Shown: one piece after another, positions 36,019 to 49,229 of the stretch
How positions within the stretch are numbered: the first letter of the stretch is position 1
Layout of the letters: the number at the start of each line of letters is the position of its first letter
From: a virus
Length of the DNA: 49,229 nucleotides
IMG/VR virus record: IMGVR_UViG_3300037168_000099
Span: 1 to 49,229 of that record
Direction: 5' to 3' (one strand)
Position numbers and translations under genes: made by a program
Notes under the pieces: generated by a model
Database searches by the model: none
Seen by the model: the letters and a program-made list of their open reading frames with translations, nothing else
Told to the model about the DNA's origin: nothing

Positions 36019-36148
36019 CGGGGTTCTCCTTGGGCAAGCGCTTCTGCAGCGCGGATATCAGGGCTTCAAGCTCCTGAACTTGGGTGAGCGGGTTGATAAC
36101 CGCCCGCACATTGATGTTCGGTTCGTCGTCGGTGAGGGTCCAGGTCAC
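35888..36148 (-). CDS. Small protein overlapping the next gene out of frame
   Basis: A GTG start at 36148 overlaps the HD gene stop (GTGTGA), which suggests coupling. The first 43 residues (NPLTQVQELEALISALQKRL) form a leucine-rich helix with coding character. The other half lies inside the 35662-36018 gene in a different frame and is Arg/Asp/Pro-rich. Either the overlap is genuine or the last half is passive. The family is unknown. Confidence 0.55.
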   Translation of the reverse strand: MTWTLTDDEPNINVRAVINPLTQVQELEALISALQKRLPKENPDDRDPARLRHPDDRSGGAGAQESPKEIPAYQLSEAERAARDRG

Positions 36149-36672
36149 ACAAACTCCTTAAACCGTCGCAGGAACTCTTCCTCTGCTCGTGTCGACGTCC
36201 AAAACTGTAAAGTGACGCCAAGCTTAGGTTCAGGAAGACACCAATCTTTGGGCGGATCAGCCATCGCCTGAACACTCTCATCTGCCAGCATAGCGTCGTC
36301 CATTCGCTTCACGAACGGAGGCATAGGCCATTCAAGCTCGAACCGATCGGCGATGGCGCGCTCTATAGCTTTCTCGCATTCCAAATAGTTCCCTAAATAC
36401 CGCTTGATCGGCCTTATCACGTCAGAAAGATACGCTTCGCTTGCGTCGTGCAGCAGAGCAGCACGCGCCAGTCCAAGCGGTGCTGCATCGGCCATGAGAA
36501 CGCAGTGCTCTGCTACGCTGTAGAAACGCACGCAGTGACCACCGTACCGGCAGAGCAGGGACAGCGCGTGCGCTATATCCTCGATGAAAACTTCTTCCGG
36601 GCGCGGATCGAGCGGCCAAAATTGCCGGCCTGAAAAAGTCTGCATCCAATCGCCTGTGCGTGCGTTCACCAC
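36145..36672 (-). CDS. HD-domain nucleotidase (YfbR-like)
   Basis: This 175-residue protein has a GTG start with AAAGGA upstream. The HD motifs are H35, YSVAEHCVLM with H56, LLHDASEA with H75-D76 and E79, and a C-terminal Asp pair (D125-D126). The pattern SVAEH, then LLHDASE, then DVIRPIK matches YfbR-type 5'-deoxynucleotidases, which free deoxynucleosides from dNMPs. In a phage it may tune nucleotide pools during replication. It overlaps the polymerase end by 7 bp. Confidence 0.85.
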   Translation of the reverse strand: MVNARTGDWMQTFSGRQFWPLDPRPEEVFIEDIAHALSLLCRYGGHCVRFYSVAEHCVLMADAAPLGLARAALLHDASEAYLSDVIRPIKRYLGNYLECEKAIERAIADRFELEWPMPPFVKRMDDAMLADESVQAMADPPKDWCLPEPKLGVTLQFWTSTRAEEEFLRRFKEFV

Positions 36673-38567
36673 ATAATCCTTTCCGCCGGCCCGTCACCCT
36701 TGAACTCGGAAGCCAGCGGGCATCCCGGCAACCATGGCAATTCCCGGTTCATCTCGCGCAGGATGACCGCCTTGTGCTCCTCCAGCCGGCCGTCCCCTTT
36801 GGGGATCAGCAGCCACAGCGAGTCGTGCTTGGTGTTCTTGCAGCGGTACCCCAGCTTCTTCAACCGAATCATCGCCTGAGACACGACGACGCGCGCCAGG
36901 GCCTGAATCAAGTTCTCGACCAGCTTCGCGCCGTACATCTTGACCCACCCCTTGCGGGTTTTCAAGCGCCAATAGCGATCGCCATCGTCCGGGTCACTAT
37001 AAAATTCGAGCGTGTCGTAGATAAGCTGGATACCGTTGGGCAGCACGATCCGTTTAGTGCCCTTGGCCACGTCGCACTTGAAACCGAGCGGTCCCATCTC
37101 GCCCGCGCCGCAACGCACATCCATGTTATTGGCAGACATCACGCTCAGCATCGTTTCGGCCAACCGCCAAAACTTCACGACCTCGGGATGCGTCGACCGA
37201 TAAGCGTCGCGCGCCTCCACGCCTTCCGCCGGCGACAGGATGATCTCGCCGAAGGACTTGACCCGCACCGTGCTCCGGATCTTATTGCCGCCGCTGCCGT
37301 AACCTGCCTGCAGTTCCACGATCTTGCCGAGCTGGCGCTCCAGCGGATGATCTTTTTTGTTGATCGGCTTCTTGTAGAAGGCGCTGGCGACGCCGACGTA
37401 GGGATCGGCGCCGGTGCGGAATTCCTCGACCTTATCCCACTGGCCGGCGCAGAAGTTCAGCAGCCGGCACTCAATCTGGCTGCAGTCCGGCTCGGCGATC
37501 AGGTATCCATCAGGTGCGACAACGCCTGAATTAATCTCGGATCCATTGGTCCAGTTCTGAAAATTCGTGTCGTCCCCGCCCGACCAGCGGCTCGTATGAG
37601 CCCCACAGTAGTGCAAGTAAACGCACAGAGGTCCCCGGCTTGCCATCCAGCCCATCGTCGCCGAGCGGGTCTGCAGCAGCGATGATTTCGTTCCCAGGCG
37701 AGCTTCCGCAAGAGCGCGCACCTCTGGATCTTCGTCAAACTTAAGCTCCTCCATGAACGGATCGTCTTTGGCGAACGCAAACTTGGTGTTGCCCTTCTCG
37801 GTGATCTTGGTTTCGGGTTCCACGCCGCGGGCGCGCAGCAGGCTGGCGAACGTGTCGTCCGATCCCAGGTCCTTGGCGGTCAGGTTCAGCTTGTCCAACA
37901 TCGCCTGCTTGCGGGTCGCTTCTTCCGTCCACACCTTGGCGAATACCGCGCCGTCGCCGATCAACTCCGGCTGCGTGAACATCTTGATAGTGGAGTCGAC
38001 CACCTCGAACTCCTCGGGCGGGAAGTCCCGGGCCAGAATGCCGAACAGCTTCCAGATCGACTCCACTTCATCGATCGCGCCGGCCGCCACCTGGCGCTGG
38101 ACGTCGACCGTCATTTCGTTCCAGTGCTTGCCTTTGAACAGGTGGTAGGGGGTAATTTTTTCAGGCAGGCCGAAGTTCTTACGAACGGAGTCGAGGGAGA
38201 CAGATATGTGATTGCCAAGCAGGAGGCGCGCCATGGACAGCGTGCATCCGGACATTCCAGGACGCACACCATACCAGTGGTTAAGTACAAGGTGGTCGAA
38301 CTGAGCGTGGTGACTAATAAGAAAGACATCGGACCAGTCCGTTTCCTTGGCGATGTAGCGGAATTCGCGGTCGTCGTACCACTGCGGCAGCGTCTTGGCA
38401 TCCCACTTGACGGCGATACCGTGCATCTCGAACCGCTTGTCCCGGCAATAGGACTCAGTGTTCATCGAGCGGATCCAGTACGGGTCGGGCGAGCCATCCG
38501 GCTTGAAGCAACCCGCTAGGTTCTCCGGGTCGTAGTACGATTCGAGGTCGGCGACGACGGGGCGCAT
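36666..38567 (-). CDS. Family A DNA polymerase with 3'-5' exonuclease
   Basis: This 633-residue replicative polymerase has exonuclease residues D7-x-E9, D91 (HHAQFDH) and D166, then motif A EPDCSQIECRLL (D361), motif B RQLGKIVELQAGYG (R411, K415, Y423) and motif C KHDSLWLL (H581-D582-S583). The position equivalent to E. coli Pol I 762 is Leu (L419), and motif C is HDS where HDE is usual. There is no 5'-3' exonuclease domain. It will copy the phage genome with the primase-helicase at 40082. Start and stop are coupled to neighbours by short overlaps. Confidence 0.95.
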   Translation of the reverse strand: MRPVVADLESYYDPENLAGCFKPDGSPDPYWIRSMNTESYCRDKRFEMHGIAVKWDAKTLPQWYDDREFRYIAKETDWSDVFLISHHAQFDHLVLNHWYGVRPGMSGCTLSMARLLLGNHISVSLDSVRKNFGLPEKITPYHLFKGKHWNEMTVDVQRQVAAGAIDEVESIWKLFGILARDFPPEEFEVVDSTIKMFTQPELIGDGAVFAKVWTEEATRKQAMLDKLNLTAKDLGSDDTFASLLRARGVEPETKITEKGNTKFAFAKDDPFMEELKFDEDPEVRALAEARLGTKSSLLQTRSATMGWMASRGPLCVYLHYCGAHTSRWSGGDDTNFQNWTNGSEINSGVVAPDGYLIAEPDCSQIECRLLNFCAGQWDKVEEFRTGADPYVGVASAFYKKPINKKDHPLERQLGKIVELQAGYGSGGNKIRSTVRVKSFGEIILSPAEGVEARDAYRSTHPEVVKFWRLAETMLSVMSANNMDVRCGAGEMGPLGFKCDVAKGTKRIVLPNGIQLIYDTLEFYSDPDDGDRYWRLKTRKGWVKMYGAKLVENLIQALARVVVSQAMIRLKKLGYRCKNTKHDSLWLLIPKGDGRLEEHKAVILREMNRELPWLPGCPLASEFKGDGPAERIMW

Positions 38568-38884
38568 TACCGGTTCGCCCTCATCAACTCGTCGATAATA
38601 GGCAACAGCGTGGCGTCGTCGTCCGAAATGGTCTCGTCGGCGAAGGCCAGCATGGGGATCCGGAGGATGGTGTTGGGGTGCGTCGGGTGGTCGGGCTCGG
38701 TGCGCCAGACCAGTATCCGGCGCCTGGAAGTGTCGTGGGCCCCAAGGGAGCGGAATTGCAGTTCGTCCTCGGCCAGGTACCGGACAGCGCGCTGGGCGTC
38801 CCGCATCGGCTTCGGGCCCTCGGGCATGCGGATGCGGGCGCGGCGGTCCGGGTGCTGGCGGAAGAACTGCTCGTCCGGGTTCAT
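38567..38884 (-). CDS. Unknown protein upstream of the polymerase
   Basis: This 105-residue protein is Arg-, Asp- and Pro-rich (RQHPDRRARIRMPEGPKPMR) with a beta-strand segment RRRILVWRTEPDHPTHPNTI and an acidic helical end. Both ends overlap neighbours (TAATG, ATGA), so it is part of the coupled operon. It could be a small polymerase accessory. It is not recognised. Confidence 0.7.
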   Translation of the reverse strand: MNPDEQFFRQHPDRRARIRMPEGPKPMRDAQRAVRYLAEDELQFRSLGAHDTSRRRILVWRTEPDHPTHPNTILRIPMLAFADETISDDDATLLPIIDELMRANR

Positions 38885-39300
38885 GTTGTTACCCCCAGCA
38901 ATTCCAGCGCTCGTTCCAGCACAGTCTTACCCCACTTCCTCAGGGCCTTGACCTTGTCATCTCCCGTCACCGAACTGGAATAGGTGGCGAGCTGGGCCAG
39001 CAGCACCGCCAGTTCCTCGGCGCGCGCCGCCGCGATTTTCCGGCGTGCTTGGGCGGTCTCGTTGACGACGCCAACCAGTGCCCTCATGTCGTCCTCGCCT
39101 TCCGCGCAGGCCCGGCGTCCCTGCTCAGTGATCGTCAGGTTGTACACCCCGGACGGATCTTGCGGCGACACGTTGCGCTGCAGGTAGCCCTTGGTCAGCA
39201 GCGACTGCGCCGGCGCTTCCCAGCGGCCGATCGGCATCATCCGCTCGCCCTCGGCGGCGATCAGGAGGACGGCCAATTCATCTTGCGTGAGATCAGCCAC
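38881..39300 (-). CDS. Winged-helix-like protein with coiled-coil C-terminus
   Basis: This 139-residue protein has a GTG start that overlaps the preceding gene by eight bases. Residues about 1-65 (LTQDELAVLLIAAEGERMMP, then LLTKGYLQRN and YNLTITEQGRRA) have a winged-helix outline like MarR/PadR-type domains. The remainder is a helical, charged segment suited to dimer formation. It is probably an early regulator. It has no family name from sequence alone. Confidence 0.65.
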   Translation of the reverse strand: MADLTQDELAVLLIAAEGERMMPIGRWEAPAQSLLTKGYLQRNVSPQDPSGVYNLTITEQGRRACAEGEDDMRALVGVVNETAQARRKIAAARAEELAVLLAQLATYSSSVTGDDKVKALRKWGKTVLERALELLGVTT

Positions 39301-39592
39301 TGATTGCCTCCACCCGCCAATGCGAATCGGGGCCGGTGCGGCAAACCAGCTTCAGGCCGTGCTTCGCCAGCTTCGGCTGCATCTTGACTTTCATGACGCT
39401 GACTATATTGCGGTTCGGACCGCCATCTTTCTGGCTATACATCAATTCAAATATGCCATCCCGGGTAATGCCGCCCCGCCCGGCGCGCTGTATGATTTGA
39501 AAAAGCCGACGCTCCTGACGCGTCATGTCGAACATTATTTCCGAATCGGGCAACGGATGCCCGCAGCATTCACAAGTCCGGACCTTCACCAT
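39293..39592 (-). CDS. Winged-helix regulator with N-terminal zinc knuckle
   Basis: The ATG at 39592 overlaps the preceding stop by seven bases; the longer start at 39637 is rejected. The protein has 99 residues: a CECCGHPLPDSE knuckle, then a wHTH (QERRLFQIIQRAGRGGITRD, IVSVMKVKMQPKLAKHGLKL) ending in a wing SHWRVE. Phages of alphaproteobacteria often carry this combination near their regulatory genes. It probably controls early transcription. Confidence 0.7.
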   Translation of the reverse strand: MVKVRTCECCGHPLPDSEIMFDMTRQERRLFQIIQRAGRGGITRDGIFELMYSQKDGGPNRNIVSVMKVKMQPKLAKHGLKLVCRTGPDSHWRVEAISG

Positions 39593-39807
39593 TCGAACGT
39601 CCTCCCGCTGCGCAGCTCGGCATCGATCCCGGCGCACACCAGCCGATACCGCTGCATCACGAATTCGGAATGCTGCACGCCCGGGCGCTGGAAACCGGCC
39701 TCGAACTTATAGATCATCGACAGCGTGTAGCCGGACATCTCGGCCAGCTGCTCGCGGGTCAGTTTGCGTCGCTCTCGCCACGCTCGGGCGCGTTCGTGGG
39801 GTTTCAT
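39586..39807 (-). CDS. Small XRE-type regulator, first gene of the replication operon
   Basis: This 73-residue protein has the ATG at 39807 with AAGGGAAA upstream; the frame runs on to 40020, but that part is not credible. It has an HTH: RAWRERRKLTREQLAEMSGY, then TLSMIYKFEAGFQRPG. It is the promoter-proximal gene of the minus-strand operon, so it likely regulates that promoter or the divergent primase gene. Its sequence is typical of a Cro/C1-like minimal regulator. Confidence 0.75.
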   Translation of the reverse strand: MKPHERARAWRERRKLTREQLAEMSGYTLSMIYKFEAGFQRPGVQHSEFVMQRYRLVCAGIDAELRSGRTFEW

Positions 39808-39831
39808 GCTGTTTCCCTTGCCGATGCGTAA

Positions 39832-39859
39832 TGCATAGCATACCCGCGCCGCTTGTAAA
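39832..39859 (-). promoter_or_regulatory. Likely promoter of the replication operon
   Basis: On the minus strand TTTACA (39859-39854) is followed after 16 bases by TATGCA (39837-39832). The AATGCATAG element at 39830-39838 overlaps the -10. Start of transcription near 39825 would leave a short leader with the AAGGGAAA site before the ATG at 39807. The -10 is poor (three of six bases). Confidence 0.4.
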
Positions 39860-39964
39860 TAGCAGAGTCGTAAAAAATTTGTTTTGATCGCGCGGCCCGT
39901 CAAATTGCGCTTGACAGCAAAGGCTTGCCGGAAGCAGTCTGCGCGCCTTGCGCCCGTTTCACCC

Positions 39965-40001
39965 AAGAAAAAGGCCGCCGGCGGGGGGATCGCCAGCGGC
40001 C
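39965..40001 (-). terminator. Hairpin with T-tract, minus-strand terminator candidate
   Basis: GGCCGC (39973-39978) pairs with GCGGCC (39996-40001). An inner GGCG pairs with CGCC around a seven-base loop, with one C-A mismatch between the stems. On the minus strand the hairpin is followed by TTTTTCTT (39972-39965). It could stop antisense transcripts from the right before they enter the replication operon. It also sits in the leader of the plus-strand primase gene. Confidence 0.5.
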
Positions 40002-40081
40002 CGGTCGAGGGGGCGCCCAAGGGGATTAAACGCCATGGCCTTCATAGCATCGGCGACCGCGCGCGGCAAGAAGCTGGCGAC

Positions 40082-42382
40082 GTGAACGTAAAGCTTGAAG
40101 CGGCGTTGGCATATGGCCGCATGGGCTGGCGGATTTTCCCCTGCCACTCGGTCGTGCAGACCGCGACGGGCCCGGCGTGCAGCTGCGGCAAAGCCTCCTG
40201 CAAATCGCCAGCTAAACATCCGAGAACAAAAAGAGGACTGCTCGATGCGACCGACGACGAATCAACCATCCGCCGGTACTGGACCCGCTGGCCCGACGCC
40301 AACATCGCACTCGCGACCGGATCCGGTCTCGCCGTGTTCGACATCGACGGGCCGGAAGGTGCGGAGGAATTCAAGCAGCTGGTGGCGACTCACGGGCCTG
40401 TGCCTGCGACGCTGGCGGCTGCCACGGGACGCGGTCTCCATCTTGTATTTGCAACGCAACCTGGAAGCCCTAGCGTTCGGTCTTCGGCAATGGGTAAGGT
40501 CCACGTTCGAGGCGAAGGGGGCTACATCATCGTCGCCCCCTCCGACCACATCACCGGGCGAAAATATCAATGGGTGAACAGGCTTGCGCCGGCACCTTTA
40601 CCTGGTTGGTTAAGACAATGGGGGGCCGGGTATAATGTTACTGCGAATGCCGTACAAGCCGTGCAGAATAGTCCCTTTGAAGCTCTCGGTGCGCTACCGG
40701 CCTATTTGCAAATACGTCAGCAGAGCCAACCCGATGTCACGAAAAGTGCAAGCGACGCATTACGTACAGTATGGAGTCCGGCCGAAGAGGCGCGGCTGAT
40801 CTCGGCGCTGGCGGCGATTCCGGCTAACCAGTACGACTCCTGGTACCAGATAGGCATGGCGCTGCATGGACTTGGCTGGGACCGCTCAGATGGAACTTCA
40901 ATAGGCTTTGACATCTGGGACCAGTGGAGCCAGACCTGCCCCGAGAAATACGCCCTCGGCGCCTGCGAAGCCAAGTGGCGATCGTTTGACCGGTCGGCGC
41001 GCGGGGAACTGACGCTCGGGACGATCTACCACCTGGCGCAACGCTCGGGGTGGAATGGAGGGGCCCCCGCGCCAATGGGCTGGGGTGAAGTGCAGGCCCC
41101 TCCGGTAAGCGCCGACCCACCTGCCGGCAACAGCGGGCACCTTAACGGCCACGCCAACGGGCATCAAGTGCTCCCGGTCGCCTTTGGCGGCCTCAAGCCC
41201 ATCACCTTCCCCGACACCAACGACAAGGGCCTGCCCCGGGCCACCATGACCAACGCCAAGGTCGCGGTCGCCGCGCTCGGGCTGGATTGCCGGTACGACC
41301 TGTTCCATAACCGGATGCTGGTCGGCGGCGAAGTCATTAACAAGTGGCATTCCAAGGAGTTGTCCGATCACGTGGTGACCATGCTGCGCAACATGATCCG
41401 TTACCGCTTCGGCTTCGATCCCGGCAAGCAGCATACTCAGGATGCCAGCGAGTCACTCGCCCTCGAGTTCCGGTTTGACCCGGTGCTGGACTACCTGGAC
41501 GGCCTGCGCTGGGACGGCCGGCCACGGCTCGACCGCTGGATGGTCGACTATCTCGGCGCCGACGACACCGAGCTGAACCGGGCGATCGGGCGCCTGTCGC
41601 TGCTCGCCGCGGTCCGCCGCGCGCGCCAGCCCGGAACCAAATTCGATCAAATTATTGTGCTCGAAGGGCGGCAGGGACAGGGCAAGAGCGAGGCGATCGA
41701 GATCCTGGCAGGCAAGGAAAACTTCTCCGATCAAAGCATCCTCGGCGTCGACGACCGCAAGCAGCAGGAGTTAACCGAAGGCGTGTGGCTGTATGAGATC
41801 GGCGAGCTCAACGGCATTCGCCGCACCGACATCGAGCACATCAAGGCTTTTGCCTCCCGCAAGGTTGACCGTGCCAGGCCGGCCTATGGGCGCTACACGG
41901 TCAGCCAGCCCCGCCGAACCGTGTTCTTTGCCAGCTGCAACAGAGACGATTACCTGCAGGACGACACCGGCAACCGCCGCTTTTGGCCGGTAGCGGTCCG
42001 GTTTGCCGACCACGATGGCTTGCGGCGCGACCGCGACCAGCTATGGGCCGAGGCCAGCGCCCGCGAAGCCCGCGGCGAGTCGCACGTGCTCGAACAACGG
42101 CTATGGGCGGTGGCCGGCGAGGAGCAGGAGAAGCGGGTGGCGGCCGACAGCTGGGTGGAACTAATCCACCGCTACCTCAACATGCCCGACAAGCACCGGG
42201 ACGATGTCAGCATCGCCGACGTGCTGTGCGACAACCAGTTTATCGCCATGCGCCCGGACGCCATCGGCAAGTCCGAGGAGATCAAGGCCGGGCGGGTGAT
42301 GGCCGCGCTGAAGTTCGAGCGCTACCAGAAGCGCCTGGCCGACGGCACGCGGGTTTACCGCTACCGTCGGCCAAGGGACTGA
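40082..42382 (+). CDS. Primase-polymerase fused to VapE/VirE-type helicase
   Basis: This 766-residue protein runs from the GTG at 40082; the frame is open from TTG 39884, but the extra N-terminus is basic and overlaps a hairpin. Domains are Prim-Pol (residues about 1-190, LAVFDIDGPEG with the catalytic pair D87 and D89, and cysteines C33, C35 and C40 of a possible zinc knuckle), PriCT-2-like (about 235-320, YQIGMALHGLGWDRSDG), and VapE ATPase with Walker A EGRQGQGKS (about 528-535) and the NRRFWPV block. It would both prime and unwind DNA at the origin. It is transcribed away from the minus-strand replication operon. Confidence 0.9.
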   Translation: MNVKLEAALAYGRMGWRIFPCHSVVQTATGPACSCGKASCKSPAKHPRTKRGLLDATDDESTIRRYWTRWPDANIALATGSGLAVFDIDGPEGAEEFKQLVATHGPVPATLAAATGRGLHLVFATQPGSPSVRSSAMGKVHVRGEGGYIIVAPSDHITGRKYQWVNRLAPAPLPGWLRQWGAGYNVTANAVQAVQNSPFEALGALPAYLQIRQQSQPDVTKSASDALRTVWSPAEEARLISALAAIPANQYDSWYQIGMALHGLGWDRSDGTSIGFDIWDQWSQTCPEKYALGACEAKWRSFDRSARGELTLGTIYHLAQRSGWNGGAPAPMGWGEVQAPPVSADPPAGNSGHLNGHANGHQVLPVAFGGLKPITFPDTNDKGLPRATMTNAKVAVAALGLDCRYDLFHNRMLVGGEVINKWHSKELSDHVVTMLRNMIRYRFGFDPGKQHTQDASESLALEFRFDPVLDYLDGLRWDGRPRLDRWMVDYLGADDTELNRAIGRLSLLAAVRRARQPGTKFDQIIVLEGRQGQGKSEAIEILAGKENFSDQSILGVDDRKQQELTEGVWLYEIGELNGIRRTDIEHIKAFASRKVDRARPAYGRYTVSQPRRTVFFASCNRDDYLQDDTGNRRFWPVAVRFADHDGLRRDRDQLWAEASAREARGESHVLEQRLWAVAGEEQEKRVAADSWVELIHRYLNMPDKHRDDVSIADVLCDNQFIAMRPDAIGKSEEIKAGRVMAALKFERYQKRLADGTRVYRYRRPRD

Positions 42383-42448
42383 GAAGGGATCAGGGCGCCG
42401 AGGTGACCGGGGGCAGGCTGACCGGAGCGGGGGTCGGCGTCAGCGTAA

Positions 42449-42625
42449 TCAGCCCTCGTCGCGAAATTCACGCTGCTGGGCTATCGCAACCGGCGTTTTC
42501 GTTGGCCGGCGAACACGCCGCCAGATCGCAACGGCGATGAGATAGGCGACATAAATCGCGCCGGACACTGCCAAGACCACGACCGTGCCGGCGACGATCG
42601 GCGAGACGATGACTAGACCCTGCAT
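42449..42625 (-). CDS. Single-span membrane protein, 58 aa
   Basis: The ATG at 42625 has GGAG six bases upstream. The frame also opens at 42688, but that ATG abuts a hairpin and has no ribosome site. Residues about 4-34 are hydrophobic (VIVSPIVAGTVVVLAVSGAI, then YVAYLIAVAIW), followed by a basic tail RRVRRPTKTP. The topology suggests a small inner-membrane protein with the tail in the cytoplasm. It is the last gene of the minus-strand accessory block. Confidence 0.65.
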   Translation of the reverse strand: MQGLVIVSPIVAGTVVVLAVSGAIYVAYLIAVAIWRRVRRPTKTPVAIAQQREFRDEG

Positions 42626-42688
42626 TTCATTCTCCAATGCTTTGCCGAGGTCGTCGCTGTGGCGCTCGGCGGGTTCTTTCCACGGCAT

Positions 42689-42722
42689 TAGGGGGTTCTC
42701 GGGTGTGAGCGAGAACCCCCTA
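42689..42722. repeat. Perfect 12-bp inverted repeat between two minus-strand genes
   Basis: TAGGGGGTTCTC (42689-42700) is matched by GAGAACCCCCTA (42711-42722) around a ten-base spacer. On the minus strand it lies between the methyltransferase stop (42743) and the membrane-protein start. No U-tract follows on the minus strand; on the plus strand TTTT lies about eight bases on. It could be a transcription terminator, an RNA-processing hairpin or an operator. Confidence 0.6.
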
Positions 42723-42742
42723 GCACGGCTTTTGTTCCCTGG

Positions 42743-43246
42743 CTATAGCCGCAAGAACTGCCCTTTGATGCTGCAGGCTTCGAGGATATCGGCATCGGCC
42801 GAGCCGTAGGCGACCAGCACCGAGGGGGCGCCGGCATTGGCGCCGGCTTGTTGCCCATCGACGTAGTGAAAATAGAGCCGTCCGCGCAGGAACAGCACCG
42901 CGGCGGCGCGGTTCCACACGGTTTCGAAAAACAAATCGGTCTCAGTGCGGGCGAAGATCAGCGCCGTTCCCTGGTTGTGCAGCGCCATGCGTTTCATCCA
43001 CGGGCCGACGATCGGCGGGGGACCGTAAGGCGGATTCAAGAACACGCGACCGCGCCACGGCTGCAGCAAGCCGTTGTCGGTGGACGTGTAGTGCCTGGCA
43101 GCCGTCGGCCACGGGCGCACGATCGGCGCGCACGGGTCGAGATCGAACGGGCCAAGCGCCGCCAACACGCTCGGCGGCGTCAGCCATTCGTCGTTCTTCA
43201 TGGCGGCCGACTGATGGCCGCCCATGCCGGCAACGCGCCTGCTCAT
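42743..43246 (-). CDS. DNA N6-adenine methyltransferase (phage Dam family)
   Basis: This 167-residue protein has the phage Dam signature: GGHQSA, DEWLTPPSVLAALGPFDLDP with the SAM-binding DPC, HYTSTDNGLLQPWRGRVFLN and the catalytic NPPYG. Such enzymes methylate adenine, often in GATC, and protect phage DNA from restriction or mark it for replication. The longer start at 43246 is kept because GGHQSA is typical of the family. It overlaps the preceding 44-residue gene by four bases. Confidence 0.9.
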   Translation of the reverse strand: MSRRVAGMGGHQSAAMKNDEWLTPPSVLAALGPFDLDPCAPIVRPWPTAARHYTSTDNGLLQPWRGRVFLNPPYGPPPIVGPWMKRMALHNQGTALIFARTETDLFFETVWNRAAAVLFLRGRLYFHYVDGQQAGANAGAPSVLVAYGSADADILEACSIKGQFLRL

Positions 43247-43377
43247 TCGAGCATGTCGGCGATAAACTGCATCGCGGCCGGGATGTGGCTATAGTCGCGC
43301 AACAGAGCCACGATCGCGCGGTGGTCGTAATAACCAACAGCCATGAAGAACCTGTTTTTTGGGATGTAAACGCGCAT
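43243..43377 (-). CDS. Small unknown protein, 44 aa
   Basis: The ATG has AAGGGGA eight bases upstream. The product begins MRVYIPKNRFFMAVGYYDHR and ends in a helical HIPAAMQFIADMLE. The stop overlaps the methyltransferase ATG (ATGA). Size, ribosome site and junctions support a real gene. No domain is known. Confidence 0.6.
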   Translation of the reverse strand: MRVYIPKNRFFMAVGYYDHRAIVALLRDYSHIPAAMQFIADMLE

Positions 43378-43380
43378 CTG

Positions 43381-43470
43381 TCATTTCCCCTTGATGGTCG
43401 GCGGGCTGATCTTCCATAGCAGCCAGCCGAGGAAGACGCCTGCCAGGATGTGGGCGAGGAAGCTGGTCAC
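43381..43470 (-). CDS. 29-aa membrane peptide
   Basis: A GTG at 43470 overlaps the upstream stop (GTGA), implying translational coupling. The peptide is a single hydrophobic helix (MTSFLAHILAGVFLGWLLW) with a short polar end KISPPTIKGK. Such mini-membrane proteins often modulate host membrane enzymes or other phage proteins. Its function is unknown. Confidence 0.55.
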   Translation of the reverse strand: MTSFLAHILAGVFLGWLLWKISPPTIKGK

Positions 43471-43721
43471 GAGGCGGGCTTGCCGGCGAGCGGGTCGAAC
43501 GCCTGGCGCTGCTTGCACAGTTCGAGCGCCTTTGCCGCCTCGAGCGCGTTAACCTCGTCAGCTTTGCGGCGCGCGGCTTCGAAGCTGAAGCAATACCAGG
43601 TCCGCCCCGAAAGGGTCTGGTATTCCTGGCTGCCCGCCGGGTTGGCTTCCTTCCAAAGACGCCAACGCCCGCCGGGTAAGCCCGATCCAGGGCGCCAAAT
43701 GTAATGTTCGGGGTACATCAT
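43467..43721 (-). CDS. Small unknown protein, 84 aa
   Basis: The start at 43721 overlaps the upstream stop (ATGATG), with GGGAG upstream. The longer frame to 43835 is rejected. The protein has an aromatic N-terminal part (MYPEHYIWRPGSGLPGGRWR) and then a helix (FSFEAARRKADEVNALEAAK). Trp-rich small proteins with this outline are common in phage accessory blocks. The role is unknown. Confidence 0.6.
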   Translation of the reverse strand: MMYPEHYIWRPGSGLPGGRWRLWKEANPAGSQEYQTLSGRTWYCFSFEAARRKADEVNALEAAKALELCKQRQAFDPLAGKPAS

Positions 43722-43945
43722 GCTAGATTCTCCCTTCCTGCTGTTGCAAAGGCGTGTCGTATGAGGTCTGTGGCTTCCTGGCGCGTCCGGAAGGTCCGGG
43801 AGCCCCAAGACACCCGGGAGCCGATCCGCCAGCACCCGGAAGCGTCGTAGGCGACCAGCGGGGGTTCATGGCCGGGACTAACGACCAGTTCGAACATGCT
43901 GGGGGAGTGGCAGAGGTATTGCATTCCGGAGAGGGTGATTTTCAC
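43718..43945 (-). CDS. Small unknown protein, 75 aa
   Basis: This 75-residue protein has a beta-rich first part (MFELVVSPGHEPPLVAYDAS), then RTFRTRQEATDLIRHAFATA, a helix. It overlaps the next gene by four bases. It could be a single-domain DNA mimic or regulator, but nothing specific supports this. Confidence 0.55.
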   Translation of the reverse strand: MKITLSGMQYLCHSPSMFELVVSPGHEPPLVAYDASGCWRIGSRVSWGSRTFRTRQEATDLIRHAFATAGRENLA

Positions 43946-43954
43946 AGTCCGCCC

Positions 43955-44443
43955 CTATCGGTAAACGGCAATGCCGCGGGTATAGCACGAGTCGGCCGTG
44001 CTGCCGTCCGGGATGTCGCCCGGCCGCAGAATGTACAGCGCGCAGCCGCGCGGATCGCCTTGGACGTAGTAGCCAAAGCCTGGATAGTTGGTGATGATCG
44101 CCCGCAGGCGCTTGAGGGCACCGCGCTCTCGATCGGGTAGGGATCCATGGGTGACGTAATCCTTGCCGTGGCCGTGCAGGTAGTGGTGGTGTTCCATGAA
44201 CGGCTTGCCGTCGTCATCGTGCTCAAAGGTTTTGCGCTTGCCGGTCAGTGTCGGGATATGATCCTTAAGGCGCTTTACCTTGCGCCCGCGCACGATCGAC
44301 CAAGACCCGTAGCTGTTGCCATCGCCGCATTCGAGCTCGTGCCAGCGGTGCAGGGTCATCGATATGCGGCGCAAGGCGATTGCGTCATGATAGGAGATGC
44401 CGGCGGATTGCAGGGCATCGATGCAGGTTTGTTTGTGGAGCAT
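43955..44443 (-). CDS. Unknown accessory protein, 162 aa
   Basis: The ATG is preceded by AAGGGAA. It has a recognisable layout from other phages: LRRISMTLHRWHELECGDGN, then GKPFMEHHHYLHGHGKDYV, then GYYVQGDPRGCALYILRPGD. The His-rich loop and conserved aromatic residues suggest a metal- or nucleotide-binding fold, but the function is not known to me. It is part of the early accessory operon. Confidence 0.7.
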   Translation of the reverse strand: MLHKQTCIDALQSAGISYHDAIALRRISMTLHRWHELECGDGNSYGSWSIVRGRKVKRLKDHIPTLTGKRKTFEHDDDGKPFMEHHHYLHGHGKDYVTHGSLPDRERGALKRLRAIITNYPGFGYYVQGDPRGCALYILRPGDIPDGSTADSCYTRGIAVYR

Positions 44444-44485
44444 TTGCCTAGTTCCCTTGTGTTTGCGCGTTGGCGCGGTTGGTGG

Positions 44486-44788
44486 TTACTCGAATGAAGC
44501 GACGATGTGGTCGATGTGGCGCGCGGTCCCGCCGCAATCCAGGATGTATTGCACCTGGTCGCGGACGCGGTCGACCTGCCGTGCGGCCATGCGGTCGAGA
44601 AGCGCGCGGCAGGAATAGCCGTTCGGGTGCGTAGCAAGCAAAGTCTCGCCTGCATCGCTTTTGTAAAACAGCCCGTGCGTATCGAGCTCCGCAATAACGC
44701 GGACCTGCAAAACGCCGTGCGGCGTTGCGACGGGCTTCAGGATGCGCGAGTCGTTTGATGGCAGGATTGATCCGCCGACGTGTCGCAT
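44486..44788 (-). CDS. Unknown accessory protein, 100 aa
   Basis: The ATG at 44788 lies two bases after the preceding stop. The first half is beta-rich (TPHGVLQVRVIAELDTHGLF) and the second half is a helix (LLDRMAARQVDRVRDQVQYI). The longer frame to 44959 is rejected because it overlaps the neighbour. There is no known domain. Confidence 0.6.
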   Translation of the reverse strand: MRHVGGSILPSNDSRILKPVATPHGVLQVRVIAELDTHGLFYKSDAGETLLATHPNGYSCRALLDRMAARQVDRVRDQVQYILDCGGTARHIDHIVASFE

Positions 44789-44790
44789 TG

Positions 44791-45099
44791 TCAAAGCCTC
44801 TCGTTTGAGGGTTGGTAGGTGTACTTGCCGGCGCCGCTCAGTTCGTCCTGGCTCGGCGCTGTTGCATTGATGGCGCGGAGCGCACAAGCGAGCAATGGCC
44901 CGGTGAACGCCGCGCAAATGGCATCGCGCGGGCTGGCGCCCTTGGCGATATCCTCGCACAAGTCATCAATACGTTTGAAGTATTGGGCGAGCGCATAGGG
45001 GTTATAGTGCTTACCGCGCGACTGGCGGATGTCGTATTGCGTCAAGGCGTGCACAAGCGCGTTGCGCACGGTCCCGCCGAACATTCGGAATTCTGGCAT
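44791..45099 (-). CDS. Unknown accessory protein, 102 aa
   Basis: AAGGGAG precedes the ATG. The protein is helical, with a motif MFGGTVRNALVHALTQYDIR and a hydrophobic middle AICAAFTGPLLACALRAINA. A structured hairpin lies in its leader (45133-45163). Its function is unknown. Confidence 0.65.
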   Translation of the reverse strand: MPEFRMFGGTVRNALVHALTQYDIRQSRGKHYNPYALAQYFKRIDDLCEDIAKGASPRDAICAAFTGPLLACALRAINATAPSQDELSGAGKYTYQPSNERL

Positions 45100-45132
45100 T
45101 GCTTAGACTCCCTTGGTTAGCTTCTACCGCCC

Positions 45133-45163
45133 TATGCCCGGTATCCTTTCGGAGCCGGGCATA
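45133..45163 (-). promoter_or_regulatory. Leader hairpin with a GNRA-type tetraloop
   Basis: A perfect 9-bp stem TATGCCCGG / CCGGGCATA encloses, on the minus strand, CTCCGAAAGGATA: an inner three-base-pair TCC/GGA stem capped by GAAA. GNRA tetraloops are typical of folded RNA, so this is likely an RNA element in the leader of the 44791-45099 gene rather than a plain DNA operator. No U-tract follows, so it is not an intrinsic terminator. Confidence 0.55.
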
Positions 45164-45196
45164 AGCGCGTCGTTTGGGTTTGGTTGCTGGTGCCTC

Positions 45197-45787
45197 CTAT
45201 TCGTTGCCGATGGGTCTCGCCCAAAGCGAGAAATTGATATCGAATTGTCCGGTTGAGTCGATGGAAAACAGGAACTCATGGTCCGGGTGCTCCGCTTGCG
45301 CGGCTTTCAAGATCTTGGCCGGGTTGTCTGTCTGCCCAGGATGAAAGCCGGACTCGAAAGCATCATCGTTGAGCTTGCGAAAGCCGTGCTTTGTCCAATC
45401 GACATCGAAGGTATCGGCGCGACGCGCGTCGTCGAGCAGGTATTCAATATAGGTGTCGACTTCGTCGCCGGCTTCGATTTCATCGGCGCCGATAACCTCA
45501 CCGTCCTCCGTTATGAAATAAGAGCGCTTCCACCCATAGGAGTCGGGCGAGCTGCGATACGCCTTCCCGGTTTCGTGGCTGATAATCCATTCATCCGACC
45601 ATTCCAGGGCATACCCGTGGTTTTCGAGCCACGAATAGACCGGCTTGGAAACGTGATTCCAATTGGCGAATATGATACCGCGTTCCGGGTCGGAATAACC
45701 CGGTTCACCGTAGGAACTGCACCAATCGACGTCTTGGTTACAGCGCTTGTACAGTAATGCTTCGATAGCTTGAGCGGGTATGTTCAT
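45197..45787 (-). CDS. Unknown accessory protein, 196 aa
   Basis: AGGAG lies before the ATG at 45787. The protein is acidic and Trp/Tyr-rich (NWNHVSKPVYSWLENHGYAL, SDEWIISHETGKAYRSSPDS), with a central strand-helix and an acidic patch DEIEAGDEVDTYIEYLLDDA. Its high negative charge would fit a DNA-mimic or inhibitor, but this is only a suggestion. No family is recognised. Confidence 0.65.
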   Translation of the reverse strand: MNIPAQAIEALLYKRCNQDVDWCSSYGEPGYSDPERGIIFANWNHVSKPVYSWLENHGYALEWSDEWIISHETGKAYRSSPDSYGWKRSYFITEDGEVIGADEIEAGDEVDTYIEYLLDDARRADTFDVDWTKHGFRKLNDDAFESGFHPGQTDNPAKILKAAQAEHPDHEFLFSIDSTGQFDINFSLWARPIGNE

Positions 45788-45798
45788 GGCTGTTGCTC

Positions 45799-45981
45799 CT
45801 ATTCCGGCAGGTTAGCGAATGCTGCACGGAGCGCCTGGATCTCCGCGTAGCGTTCGGGGAAAGTGATTCGCAGGGTCGACCAATCCATGCCGAACTGCAG
45901 TCCGCCGGCCATGTCCCGGAAACACTGGCGCAGGATTGCGTTGTAGCGGCGCAAGGCGCCTCGTTTGGTTCGGACGGTCAT
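45799..45981 (-). CDS. Small unknown protein, 60 aa
   Basis: The ATG has AAGGGAG nearby. The product is basic and helical (TKRGALRRYNAILRQCFRDM), then FPERYAEIQALRAAFANL. Its size and outline suit a small DNA- or protein-binding factor. It is followed after 11 bases by the 196-residue gene. Confidence 0.6.
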   Translation of the reverse strand: MTVRTKRGALRRYNAILRQCFRDMAGGLQFGMDWSTLRITFPERYAEIQALRAAFANLPE

Positions 45982-46009
45982 TGGTTGTTCTCCCTTGTGG
46001 ACTCATCAG

Positions 46010-46044
46010 CTGCAGCTCGACTGCAGGACCGCGCCAGGCGCGGT
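46010..46044. repeat. Two small hairpins in an intergenic gap
   Basis: CTGCAG-CTCGA-CTGCAG (46010-46026) and ACCGCGC-CAG-GCGCGGT (46028-46044) can form stems of six and seven base pairs. They fill the 69-bp gap between the genes at 46051 and 45981. They may be RNA-stability or regulatory elements; no T-tract is present. Confidence 0.45.
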
Positions 46045-46050
46045 TTCGTC

Positions 46051-46419
46051 CTATTCAGTTTCCTCCCCTTCTGTTTCACGCTCATCCGGCCAATCAAACC
46101 CGTCGGTTTCCTCGTTGTACTCCATGCCGTGCGGGATAAGCCAGCAATCGCCGTTTTGATAGACGCTGTACTTGACGCCATTGTCATCGGTTACGGTCGC
46201 GGTTTGCTCCACATCGGACCACGTGTCCCAATACGCCTCATTGCAGACGCAAACGCCGTTCTCATCCTCATAATCCGGGCCGCGTTCCAAAATCGCCCAG
46301 TCCTCATCCGATACGCCGCTGACACTCTTGGCGCGGTCGCTGAATGATTTGGCGAAGTCTCGCGGGATGTAAACGCCGCGCGCGTCCGAAAGCCAAAGTA
46401 GCATGCCGGGTCTGGGCAT
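46051..46419 (-). CDS. Unknown accessory protein, 122 aa, first gene of the block
   Basis: GAGGGG lies just before the ATG at 46419. The protein starts MLLWLSDARGVYIPRDFAKS and later has CVCNEAYWDTWSDVEQTA and YSVYQNGDCWLIPHGMEYNE, then a very acidic tail. Proteins with the same LWLSDARGIYIPRDFA opening occur in many phages, usually as the first gene of an early block; their function is unknown. Confidence 0.7.
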   Translation of the reverse strand: MPRPGMLLWLSDARGVYIPRDFAKSFSDRAKSVSGVSDEDWAILERGPDYEDENGVCVCNEAYWDTWSDVEQTATVTDDNGVKYSVYQNGDCWLIPHGMEYNEETDGFDWPDERETEGEETE

Positions 46420-46447
46420 CTGAGTCCCCTCTCGTTTCGATCCGTCT

Positions 46448-46475
46448 ATTATGCATTTTATAACGGATGGTGCAA
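46448..46475 (-). promoter_or_regulatory. Likely promoter and operator of the accessory block
   Basis: On the minus strand TTGCAC (46475-46470) is followed after 16 bases by CATAAT (46453-46448), which matches the -10 consensus at five of six positions. It lies about 28 bases before the 46419 start. The inverted arms ATCCGT (46440-46445) and ACGGAT (46463-46468) flank the -10 and could be an operator; an ATGCAT core lies between them. Confidence 0.5.
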
Positions 46476-46484
46476 GAGGGATTT

Positions 46485-46813
46485 TATCACGTTTTTGTGA
46501 TTATAAGCGGCCTGGTCGGTGCCGATTTGCGACATGGTGCCACGGTGACAGCATGGTGACGCAAGCTAGCCTACTCTTGCAACCATTGTCACCATGTCAC
46601 CATATGTCATCATATAAATGTATAGAGAGGTAAGAGGGAATAGAGGAGTAGAGACATATAGCGTATATAATGCATAGAGTATTCCCTAGGTATGGGGACA
46701 TTGTATGGTGACATGGTGCCAATGGTGACATTGTTGATATCGTTAAGCTTTTCGGTTTGGCATATGGTGACAGACATGGTGACATGGTGCCAATATCACG
46801 CGTTTGTGACTAT
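46485..46813. repeat. Iteron-like array, candidate replication origin
   Basis: Thirteen copies of a 9-bp motif related to ATGGTGACA lie here. Direct copies start at 46534, 46542, 46553, 46692, 46705, 46713, 46722, 46764, 46776 and 46784; inverted copies (TGTCACCAT type) start at 46587, 46595 and 46605. A 19-bp compound unit ATGGTGACATGGTGCCAAT occurs exactly at 46705 and 46776. The clusters flank an AT-rich, purine-rich stretch (46614-46690). Two 20-bp elements, TATCACGTTTTTGTGATTAT (46485-46504) and TATCACGCGTTTGTGACTAT (46794-46813), bracket the array. Iterons beside an AT-rich stretch in a non-coding divergent region fit an origin; multi-site operator control is the alternative. Confidence 0.7.
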
Positions 46814-46856
46814 GAATTGCGTAAAAACAAGCGTAGAATTGTGAAAGTTACAGTAA

Positions 46857-46891
46857 TTGGTATCCCAATATAGGGAGTATTGGGATACCAA
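46857..46891. repeat. Perfect 14-bp inverted repeat
   Basis: TTGGTATCCCAATA (46857-46870) and its exact complement TATTGGGATACCAA (46878-46891) are separated by TAGGGAG. The element lies between the iteron array and the first plus-strand gene. No T-tract follows on either strand. It may be an operator, a cruciform, or a primase loading site. Confidence 0.7.
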
Positions 46892-46922
46892 AAGTGGTAA
46901 AATCCATAAAATGGAGGTTAAA

Positions 46923-46940
46923 ATGGCTATTAAAGCGTAA
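46923..46940 (+). CDS. Possible five-codon minigene (leader peptide)
   Basis: A perfect GGAGG (46913-46917) five bases before ATG leads into MAIKA and a TAA stop. The next gene starts 49 bases further on with its own GGAGG. Minigenes of this size can drain peptidyl-tRNA or regulate downstream translation. There is no protein homology; the ribosome site is the evidence. Confidence 0.4.
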   Translation: MAIKA

Positions 46941-46988
46941 GGTGCAATCGAGCGAATCAACGGTTTGGATCAAATGGAGGGATTAGAG

Positions 46989-47162
46989 ATGCAAGCGAGA
47001 ACGCCGGATGAATGCGCGAATCACATGATAGTGCGCTACGGTACCAGCAACGCTCCCAAGCACGTCGCGGACGCGATACAAAACAATCGCGACAATTCGC
47101 AGGCGCTGTTGTACTGGCAAGCCGTCGACCGCGCGCTGATTCTGCTATTGCGGGACGTTTAG
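46989..47162 (+). CDS. Small unknown protein, 57 aa, first plus-strand gene after the origin
   Basis: GGAGG lies eight bases before the ATG at 46989; the frame is open from 46965, but that start lacks a good site. The protein is helical (DECANHMIVRYGTSNAPKHV, then NNRDNSQALLYWQAVDRALI). It lies next to the iterons and might be an initiator accessory or regulator. Its function is unknown. Confidence 0.6.
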   Translation: MQARTPDECANHMIVRYGTSNAPKHVADAIQNNRDNSQALLYWQAVDRALILLLRDV

Positions 47163-47319
47163 CTAAGGTTTAGGGCGAGCTCGCCACTTCGCCAGATTGA
47201 GCGCTCCGGCTTTCAGGCCGGGACGTTCTTTCTCCTATCAAATGTTTGTGATGGGATTGACTATCGGTATGAAATGCATAATTGTGTGTTTGGTTTTAAC
47301 GCGCACAAGGGGAAACGAA

Positions 47320-47595
47320 ATGGCTACACACTATTTTGAAACGACCGGTGAAGCTTACGACGCAACACAGTGTCGCGACGACGTTGCGAGTGGTGACGTT
47401 CTTGTCGTCGAGTCTGAATTCGTGGTTGGCGTTGCTGATACTTGGCCGGTTGCGGTGACGCTCGCTTGCGGGCATCTGCACAGCCCCAGTGCAGGTTTTT
47501 CTTTGGCGGAATGCTTGGCCGGTCGCGCCGCAGCTGGCGGAATCGAAGCGGCGCTGGCCCTTGCTGCAAGCCTTGGCTATCCATGCCGCGCTTGA
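47320..47595 (+). CDS. Unknown early protein, 91 aa
   Basis: AAGGGGAAA precedes the ATG at 47320; the frame is open from 47197, but that part lacks coding character. The product starts MATHYFETTGEAYDATQCRD and contains DVLVVESEFVVGVADTWPVA, an outline I recall from many phages of alphaproteobacteria, function unknown. It overlaps the next gene by 13 bp. An AATGCATAA element lies upstream (47273-47281). Confidence 0.7.
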   Translation: MATHYFETTGEAYDATQCRDDVASGDVLVVESEFVVGVADTWPVAVTLACGHLHSPSAGFSLAECLAGRAAAGGIEAALALAASLGYPCRA

Positions 47596-47789
47596 AAGTC
47601 CCTCGCATTACCTGTTGCTGGTGCGGGACCCGAATTGAACCGAACGCGCCGCGTATGCGCCTGCATGAATCGGCGGATACGCGGTGCATTACAAAATGCT
47701 TGGCAACGTTCCATCCGGAGTGTGGGGACGCTTTGCTTGATTATTGCGAGCGCAGGGTTAAACGCAAAGCGGTTACCGGCGATTTTTAG
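47583..47789 (+). CDS. Small zinc-finger protein, 68 aa
   Basis: The ATG at 47583 overlaps the previous gene. Cysteines in TCCWCG and RCITKC, then HPECGD and a late Cys, form a likely zinc-binding fold. The C-terminus is basic (RRVKRKAVTGDF). It may bind nucleic acid or a host protein. It overlaps the convergent minus-strand gene by 17 bp. Confidence 0.6.
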   Translation: MPRLKVPRITCCWCGTRIEPNAPRMRLHESADTRCITKCLATFHPECGDALLDYCERRVKRKAVTGDF

Positions 47790-48087
47790 TCGCGTGATAC
47801 CTGCGGAGATTGAGAGCGCCAGCCGAGAGGCCTAGGCGCTCTTTTTCGTTGCGCGCCTCGTTGGCGACCTTGGCGAGCTCGTTGGCGCGGGCTTGGATCT
47901 TGTCGGCTAATAGCTGCAGTGCCCATCGGGGAGGCTGGCGCCGTCCGGCACGCCAATTCAGCACTGCGGCGCGTTTAGCTCTGCCGTCCAGCAAGCGCAC
48001 GATTGCGCGGCCGCCAGCGCCAGGATGTAGCGCGTCGACGGCGCAAGAAAACACGGTTACAGGTTTCGAATCCAAATTTGGTTCCAT
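47773..48087 (-). CDS. Putative helix-turn-helix regulator on the minus strand
   Basis: This 104-residue protein has the core AGGRAIVRLLDGRAKRAAVL, then NWRAGRRQPPRWALQLLADK, an HTH outline common in phages (often annotated as a small regulator). It is the only minus-strand gene in this part and lies opposite the late-operon start. Its ATG has no clear ribosome site. It may repress the plus-strand operon that starts past 48294, and repeated GTCGAC/AGGTCG sites lie upstream. Confidence 0.6.
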   Translation of the reverse strand: MEPNLDSKPVTVFSCAVDALHPGAGGRAIVRLLDGRAKRAAVLNWRAGRRQPPRWALQLLADKIQARANELAKVANEARNEKERLGLSAGALNLRRYHATKNRR

Positions 48088-48128
48088 ACCGGGAGAGGCT
48101 TTCTATCGTCCTGGGAACCAATAGCAGA

Positions 48129-48199
48129 CCAGGTCGCACCAGGTCGACCGCAAGCCCGCATCTAGTCGACCTCAACCCGCCAACCCCTCTCGACCTCGA
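48129..48199. promoter_or_regulatory. Cluster of AGGTCG/GTCGAC sites, possible operators
   Basis: CCAGGTCG occurs at 48129 and 48139, AGTCGACCT at 48164 and TCGACCTCGAG at 48189, all in about 70 bp just upstream of the minus-strand HTH gene and the plus-strand operon. The arms are partly palindromic. An AT-rich stretch follows at 48215-48275, where promoter elements may lie. Roughly 48088-48293 holds no other gene. Confidence 0.4.
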
Positions 48200-48545
48200 G
48201 CGACCGACCGCTTACAACTCAAGAGTAATAACCATAAACCATAGCGAATATTTTTGTTTGCGAGCGCTATCAATAGGTTAGGAGGCGCACCTCATGTACC
48301 CATTGCTTTGGCTCGATCCAGGCGCGGCCGGCTGCGGTATAGGGGTAGTCAAATCCCCGAGGTCGACGGCCCGCGAGGGAAAAGATTCTTGGGCACGCAT
48401 CCCCATCCCTCCCCAGAAAAAATTCCAAAAACCGCCTTACCCGGTAACCAGCCACCACCAACCCCATTGCAATAAGCCACGCCTTATGCCATCCAGAACA
48501 GCGTCAGGACCCCGCCCATCAGTTAAAACCGGAGTTTCAGCAAAA

Positions 48546-48794
48546 ATGACCAACGTTTACGAAGGCACCCCCGACGCCCGCCAGTCCGCCGACGTCGCGC
48601 ACCCGGTCTCCAGCTTCCGCCCCACATACCGTGCGCTCACGCCCGACGAGAAGGCTCTGCACGACGACCTCAAAGCCAAGGCCGTCGAGCTCGAAGCCCT
48701 GTTCGCCAAGGTCAAGCCCGGCCGTTACAACGCCCTGGCGGTCACCAGCCTGGAGCAGGCGATCATGTGGATCGTCAAGGAGCTGACGTCGTGA
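48546..48794 (+). CDS. Acb2/Tad1-like small protein, candidate anti-defence cyclic-nucleotide sponge
   Basis: The 82-residue part from ATG 48546 has YRALTPDEKALHDDLKAKAV, ELEALFAKVKPGRYNALAVT and SLEQAIMWIVKELT. The helical hairpin with a G-R-x-x-x-L-A-x-T-x-L-E-x-A-x-M-W signature is what I know from the Acb2/Tad1 hairpin family, whose studied members bind the signalling nucleotides of CBASS or Thoeris. The frame is open to an ATG at 48294 with a perfect GGAGG, adding 84 Pro/Arg-rich residues; the true start is uncertain. It is coupled to the next gene (GTGA). Confidence 0.65.
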   Translation: MTNVYEGTPDARQSADVAHPVSSFRPTYRALTPDEKALHDDLKAKAVELEALFAKVKPGRYNALAVTSLEQAIMWIVKELTS

Positions 48795-48946
48795 ATGCAG
48801 CGATCGTCATCGCGAGCATCTACTTCGCCATCCCGCTAGGAAGTATCTGGATTTCCGGGCGGCAGCTCACTTGGCAAGGCTGGCTGCTGTTCATGACGTT
48901 GTGGCCGATAGCGTTGCTGTTTATGGGACCGGAGGAATTGCCGTGA
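48791..48946 (+). CDS. Small two-span membrane protein, 51 aa
   Basis: The GTG overlaps the preceding stop by four bases. It has two hydrophobic segments (AIVIASIYFAIPLGSIWI and WLLFMTLWPIALLFMG) with a short polar turn. Its end overlaps the next GTG. Possible roles are envelope modification or defence evasion. The family is unknown. Confidence 0.6.
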   Translation: MNAAIVIASIYFAIPLGSIWISGRQLTWQGWLLFMTLWPIALLFMGPEELP

Positions 48947-49203
48947 AAACCCGCCTGCACGTCGCCGCCCCTGAGCACGAGGTCGCCTACCAGGACATCG
49001 TCGCCCTGGTGCGCAAACACGGCGAGCACCTCAGTGCGGTCGAGATGCTCGCCATAGCGGCCAACATGCTGGGCAAGCTGTGCGCGATGCAGGATCAGCG
49101 CAGCCTGACGCCGGCGATGGTCATGGAGATCGTCGCGCAAAATGTCGAGGAAGGTAACCGGCAGGCGGTTGCCAATATCCAGCAGAGCAGGGGAAGCGCA
49201 TGA
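48943..49203 (+). CDS. Small helical protein, 86 aa, possible terminase-region factor
   Basis: A GTG start has GGAGG seven bases upstream. The product is fully helical (EVAYQDIVALVRKHGEHLSA, MLAIAANMLGKLCAMQDQRS, MVMEIVAQNVEEGNRQAVAN). It is close to the terminase, so a small terminase role can be imagined, but there is no DNA-binding signature. The end overlaps the next ATG (ATGA). Confidence 0.65.
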   Translation: MKTRLHVAAPEHEVAYQDIVALVRKHGEHLSAVEMLAIAANMLGKLCAMQDQRSLTPAMVMEIVAQNVEEGNRQAVANIQQSRGSA

Positions 49204-49229
49204 CCAGAAAGCCCAAAGGCCCCCGCCCA
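49200..49229 (+). CDS. 5' end of a gene cut by the window edge, continued at base 1
   Basis: The ATG overlaps the previous stop by four bases and gives MTRKPKGPRP, then the window ends on a codon boundary. The frame resumes at base 1 without a stop (GQLEFVAPIGQ), so 49200-49229 plus 1-375 probably form one gene of 134 residues in a circular or terminally redundant genome. Confidence 0.6.
   Translation, partial: MTRKPKGPRP

Follow-up and report, generated by a model that had tools for sequence, protein, structure and literature searches.

Positions 48546-48794 of the window (the whole stretch of DNA analysed, 49,229 nucleotides) represent, with a probability of about 0.68, the gene for a compact 82-residue Acb2-type protein, working most likely as its relatives do, as a nucleotide sponge. 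It is an ordinary 82-residue member of the known Acb2/Tad1 'sponge' family and not a new type, and the 84-residue extension that a first-pass annotation had proposed in front of it is very probably untranslated. The start at 48546 corrects a likely start-codon error, by which a false 'new domain' would otherwise enter annotation. What is said below of oligomerisation, of the ligand and its binding, and of a role against host defence is carried over from the family by analogy.

Locus and neighbouring genes

The source record of 49,229 bases is the whole virus record, and matches to terminase, DNA polymerase, primase-helicase and peptidase point to a phage. Near its right end, a single open frame of 166 codons with an ATG start covers 48294-48794 on the plus strand; it is open as first annotated and contains the motif RxxxLAxTxLExAxMW. 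An in-frame ATG at 48546 gives an 82-residue C-terminal core. The features of this region are the following.

47773..48087, minus strand: 104-aa gene lying upstream in divergent orientation; L007 and L026 have relatives
48280..48285, plus strand: AGGAGG, 8 nt before ATG 48294
48294..48545, plus strand: in-frame upstream stretch (proposed 84-residue extension), probably an untranslated leader or control region
48531..48534, plus strand: GGAG, candidate ribosome site of ATG 48546, spacing 11 nt
48546..48794, plus strand: acb2-like gene for the compact Acb2/Tad1-hairpin protein (82 codons and a stop), most likely the real gene
48642..48704, plus strand: first predicted hairpin helix (helix 1), residues 33-53 (AlphaFold2, 62 sequences, block pLDDT 95-98)
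48723..48788, plus strand: predicted helix 2 with R60-x3-LA-x-T67-x-LE-x3-MW, residues 60-81 (AlphaFold2 model and alignment)
48791..48946, plus strand: next gene, 51-residue hydrophobic small protein, GTG start overlapping the acb2-like stop (GTGA)
48943..49203, plus strand: 86-residue ORF downstream of the 51-residue gene; L033 has a relative directly upstream of its acb2-like gene

The acb2-like gene comes after the divergent minus-strand gene and is the first of several small genes in a row at the record's end; Pfam and PHROG searches recognised no structural gene next to it. The 51-residue protein had no PHROG match, and the divergent 104-aa gene gave no family over the cut-off in the Pfam and PHROG searches. 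Conservation of the neighbours was absent among the compared loci, the 86-residue protein being found only in L033 and the divergent gene in L026 and in L007, whose DNA is the closest among the relatives (80% identity). In L007, an RNA ligase-like gene (2410-2958; phrog_548, E 1.2e-31) immediately precedes the acb2-like gene. Four AGGTCGA words, two per strand and accompanied by related direct and inverted repeats, were detected at 48128-48212 and 48358-48367, between the divergent genes and with one word inside the proposed extension; their arrangement is operator-like, and the window holds 17 AGGTCGA words compared to 6.1 expected. A promoter scan found none, and megablast of 36000-49229 against phages led to no match.

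Start site of the gene

The strong ribosome site noticed at first pass before ATG 48294 is indeed present as AGGAGG with a spacing of 8 nt; on its two strands together, the window has just one other AGGAGG-N4-10-ATG arrangement. This good spacing, and a frame that is open through to the core, favour a 166-residue form from ATG 48294, as the real or an alternative product, in which case the sponge would carry a new Pro/Arg-rich extension at its N-terminus. The codon statistics argue against this form. GC by codon position was 0.57/0.58/0.54 in 48294-48545, reflecting no codon-position signal, compared to 0.65/0.43/0.90 in the core, and a codon model from 30 window ORFs (leave-one-out) gave a score of -0.39 for the extension and +0.49 for the core. 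A score as low as that of the extension occurred in 6/375 coding windows of equal length and was matched or exceeded by 800/1875 wrong-frame windows, as is typical of wrong frames, while the core score was reached by 0/1875 wrong-frame windows. Coding potential had first been trained on a set with shadow ORFs and then on 30 ORFs with GC3>GC1>GC2, leading to the same answer. The 84-codon open stretch is not beyond chance: among random 84-codon stretches generated by a dinucleotide Markov model of 48088-48545, 7.2% were open in a given frame, and the extension region also holds overlapping open frames of 65 and 73 codons.

Relatives were collected as 81 loci, found with patterns containing LEQ[SA][IV]MW or KPGRYN[SA]L. 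The start-site count covered 57 of them, leaving aside 4 that had no usable start and 20 that were distant; over the compared DNA, 7 of the 57 duplicate another one. The upstream frame was counted in 56, one being cut by the contig end. All 57 start at or near the same place as ATG 48546, and in 55 a Shine-Dalgarno-like word is located 4-12 nt before the conserved start, compared to 8.2% of all window ATGs, which disfavours ATG 48294. No upstream open frame of 84 codons or more was detected in the 56 uncut relatives (longest 67, median 12), and 50 of these have no in-frame upstream ATG at all. Similarly, DNA similarity to the relatives sets in with the core or up to 8 bases ahead of it; the sole DNA match further upstream is to L007 at 47893-47991, within the divergent gene. 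The 11-nt GGAG spacing seen at ATG 48546 recurs in 7/57 relatives, several of them near-copies of one another. In the predicted RNA fold, the region of GGAG at 48531..48534 is little structured and the GAGG of the AGGAGG at 48280 pairs with CCUC just before ATG 48294, the latter a further point against the 166-residue form; overall, the predicted leader fold does not exceed shuffled sequences in stability (z 0.12).

A search with extension residues 1-84 found no relatives in viral_contigs, and Pfam on the 166-residue frame gave no match outside the hairpin. The extension as a new domain was therefore rejected, from the missing codon signature, relatives in viral_contigs and Pfam hit outside the hairpin; equally, a hidden gene in another frame behind AGGAGG was considered and dropped, as no frame there has a clear coding signal. 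The 166-residue form is thus highly improbable, and the new extension proposed at first pass is not borne out. The strong AGGAGG at 48280 is unexplained, and some initiation at ATG 48294 is conceivable.

Family membership and predicted fold

The first-pass assignment of the C-terminal 82 residues to the Acb2/Tad1 family is supported by Pfam, by profile-profile comparison, by the PDB sequence profile and by the predicted fold. The core scored 53.5 bits (E = 2.8e-14) with Pfam PF24729 Acb2_Tad1_hairpin, above the curated cut-off of 27 bits, a resemblance far beyond chance; DUF7681 is presumably an older name of this family. As controls in the same library, T4 Vs.4 (Acb2) and PaMx33 Acb2 reached 71.4 and 66.1 bits, and searching the whole T4 and PaMx33 records led to exactly one PF24729 match per genome, in the acb2 gene. 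In core numbering, the motif reads R60-YNA-L64-A65-V-T67-S-L69-E70-Q-A72-I-M74-W75. For the profile comparisons, 18 of the 81 loci (near-copies, cut or partial matches, removed by hand) and 2 identical proteins were left out, and the remaining 61 together with the window protein gave an alignment of 62 sequences. Comparison of this alignment with T4 plus PaMx33 Acb2 by hhalign led to a probability of 95.7 and an E-value of 8.4e-9. When its profile was run against all PDB sequences, 13 rows at E up to 1 were obtained, of which the best 9 were Acb2 (2), Tad1 (6) and 'Acb2 homolog 43' (1), with E 0.0044 to 0.094. The best PHROG match of the core was PHROG 1454 (E 1.1e-6). No matches resulted from a single-sequence PDB search with the core or from NCBIfam and PADLOC.

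AlphaFold2 on the 62 sequences predicted, with a mean pLDDT of 87.3, the hairpin that is expected of the family, formed by two helices at residues 33-53 and 60-81 and with no strand of three residues or more. The monomer model hence describes a free-standing protein of two antiparallel helices with a short N-terminal part and without the Tad1 beta-sheet, which are the features of Acb2. It replaced an earlier 13-sequence model (pLDDT 68.8), for which Acb2 had also been at rank 1 in Foldseek with a best E of 2.5. Foldseek with the 62-sequence model against 350,542 PDB chains listed Acb2, CbTad1 or T4 Vs.4 at all of ranks 1-18, with Acb2 at ranks 1-5; the best row had E 0.19 and a probability of 0.99 and none was at E 0.001 or below, weak values that are to be expected of such a small domain. 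Against predicted viral proteins, 18/22 top rows were named Acb2/Tad1 hairpin domain proteins. VIA-align gave Z 6.3-6.8 to Acb2, Vs.4 and Acb2 homolog 43 at 1.6-2.3 A, and unrelated helical hairpins reached up to 7.3, so that VIA-align alone is not decisive.

The same data bear on whether the protein could be Tad1 proper, dedicated to cADPR isomers. Helix 2 (RYNALAVTSLEQAIMW) resembles that of Tad1 (SRENACALTHVEEALMW), and a single-sequence search with residues 23-82 listed only Tad1 chains, at E 1.2 or worse. Against this stand the missing N-terminal beta-sheet domain, the length of 82 residues compared to 123-138 in Tad1 chains, and a model free of any strand of three or more residues, making Tad1 proper very unlikely.

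Putative binding residues and ligand

Residue K43 corresponds to K23 of T4 and K26 of PaMx33, the latter of which we take to be a ligand contact residue, and is kept in 61/62 aligned sequences. Y28 (Y8 in T4 Acb2) is conserved in 61/62 and T67 (T68 in T4) in 62/62. One report describes that Y8A in T4 Acb2 abolished or disrupted CDN binding and that F82 stacks on the ligand (PMC12657218); in another, T68M lowered the binding affinity of T4 Acb2 (PMC12657230). The binding pocket expected at first pass is therefore kept in part, with Y28 and T67 at the positions of T4 Y8 and T68, while F82 aligns with T81 and the C-terminal tail is absent. As PaMx33 Acb2, a proven member, has Ala at the F82 position, F82 is not family-defining. 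Y28, K43 and T67 lie outside the collection patterns; the invariance of R60, L64, L69, E70, M74 and W75 is partly a result of selection, since the search patterns contained LEQ[SA][IV]MW or KPGRYN[SA]L. Judged from the sequence, a cADPR isomer or a trinucleotide would be as likely a ligand as a cyclic dinucleotide, because helix 2 is as Tad1-like as Acb2-like and the F82 aromatic and the C-terminal tail are missing.

Proposed function

The protein has an N-terminal segment of 26-30 residues and, behind it, a single short helical hairpin by prediction. By analogy with the family, several copies would most likely assemble, as in Acb2, which is a hexamer. The assembled protein would then bind cyclic nucleotide immune signals, and by this capture CBASS- or Thoeris-type effectors would not be activated during infection. 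One relative adjoins a phage integrase in Bradyrhizobium centrolobii. In this genome, genes for an oligonucleotide cyclase and a 4TM effector also stand side by side as a CBASS-like pair; this agrees with a role in countering CBASS, as an anecdote from a single genome. In Sinorhizobium phage Aussie, a PF24729 hairpin protein (L019 2944-3180; 68 bits) is encoded between head-tail adaptor and stopper genes, a position that is odd for an anti-defence gene and could hint at another role.

Such a protein might have kept the hairpin fold for another job, e.g. in the virion or in gene regulation, with no binding of immune signals. Besides the position in Aussie, the wide distribution of compact members and the loss of F82 and the C-terminal tail are in line with this. 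We nevertheless consider it rather unlikely, from Y28, K43 and T67 being kept across the 62 sequences, from the window copy lying among small ORFs with no recognised structural gene beside it, and from the solved structure of a compact homolog bound to 3'cADPR (9ptq). The sponge reading is hence preferred.

Other features of the record

Elsewhere in the window, an iteron-like cluster at 46534-46792 contains 13 of the 22 sites of the ATGGTGACA type (one mismatch allowed) within 260 bp, in both orientations and in low-GC DNA, with 7.3 such sites expected for the whole window; it is perhaps a replication origin or a regulator site. A phage Dam-type DNA N6-adenine methyltransferase is encoded at 42743-43246 on the minus strand (PF05869, E 1.9e-11; phrog_111) and possibly protects the phage DNA from restriction. 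Tandem repeats of 60/120 bp are located at 557-817, near the left end of the window.

Comparison with known systems

Of the 62 aligned sequences, 47 form a compact Acb2 subfamily. In these 47 closest sequences, D10, R12, F24, R25, Y28 and R29 show no variation and E6, G7, Q13 and R23 very little (position 23 is S in the window protein). More distant relatives have the short hairpin and lack the EGxPDxRQ segment. It is possible, and we hold it only tentatively, that this subfamily sequesters a different signal with a rebuilt ligand site, for instance a cADPR isomer, like Acb2 homolog 43, or one with which no sponge has yet been connected. E6-G-x-P-D10-x-R12-Q13 and F24-R-P-x-Y28-R would then replace the missing F82 and C-terminal tail. 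In literature searches by PDB code and family names, no report dealing with the compact subfamily turned up. Compactness itself is not new, as the compact 9ptq is already in the PDB with 3'cADPR; the study behind it is presumably Hadary et al. 2025.

The window protein resembles Acb2 of the Pseudomonas phages PaMx33 and PaP2 and T4 Vs.4 as a small free-standing protein with the PF24729 hairpin, and these are its top Foldseek PDB rows. It shares Y, K and T at the positions aligned with Y8, K23 and T68 of T4 Acb2. Unlike T4 and PaMx33 Acb2, it has a hairpin turn that is about 24 residues shorter and a longer N-terminal segment in which EGxPDxRQ and RFRPxYR are conserved, and unlike T4 Acb2 it is devoid of F82 and of the C-terminal tail. 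With Acb2 homolog 43 (PDB 9ptq, with 3'cADPR; chain sequence of 76 residues, structure of 69) it has the compact hairpin in common, 57 residues aligning at 2.3 A, but only 16% identity over the aligned part. The R-x3-A-x-T-x2-E-x2-MW helix is shared with Tad1 (CbTad1, PDB 7uav, 8smd, 8kbf), which differs in having an N-terminal beta-sheet domain. Among PHROGs, the protein is most like PHROG 1454 (81 positions), for which PHROGs records no function. If immune signals are bound, these proteins would add a well-populated branch of compact sponges to a family whose characterised members come mainly from T4-like and Pseudomonas phages.
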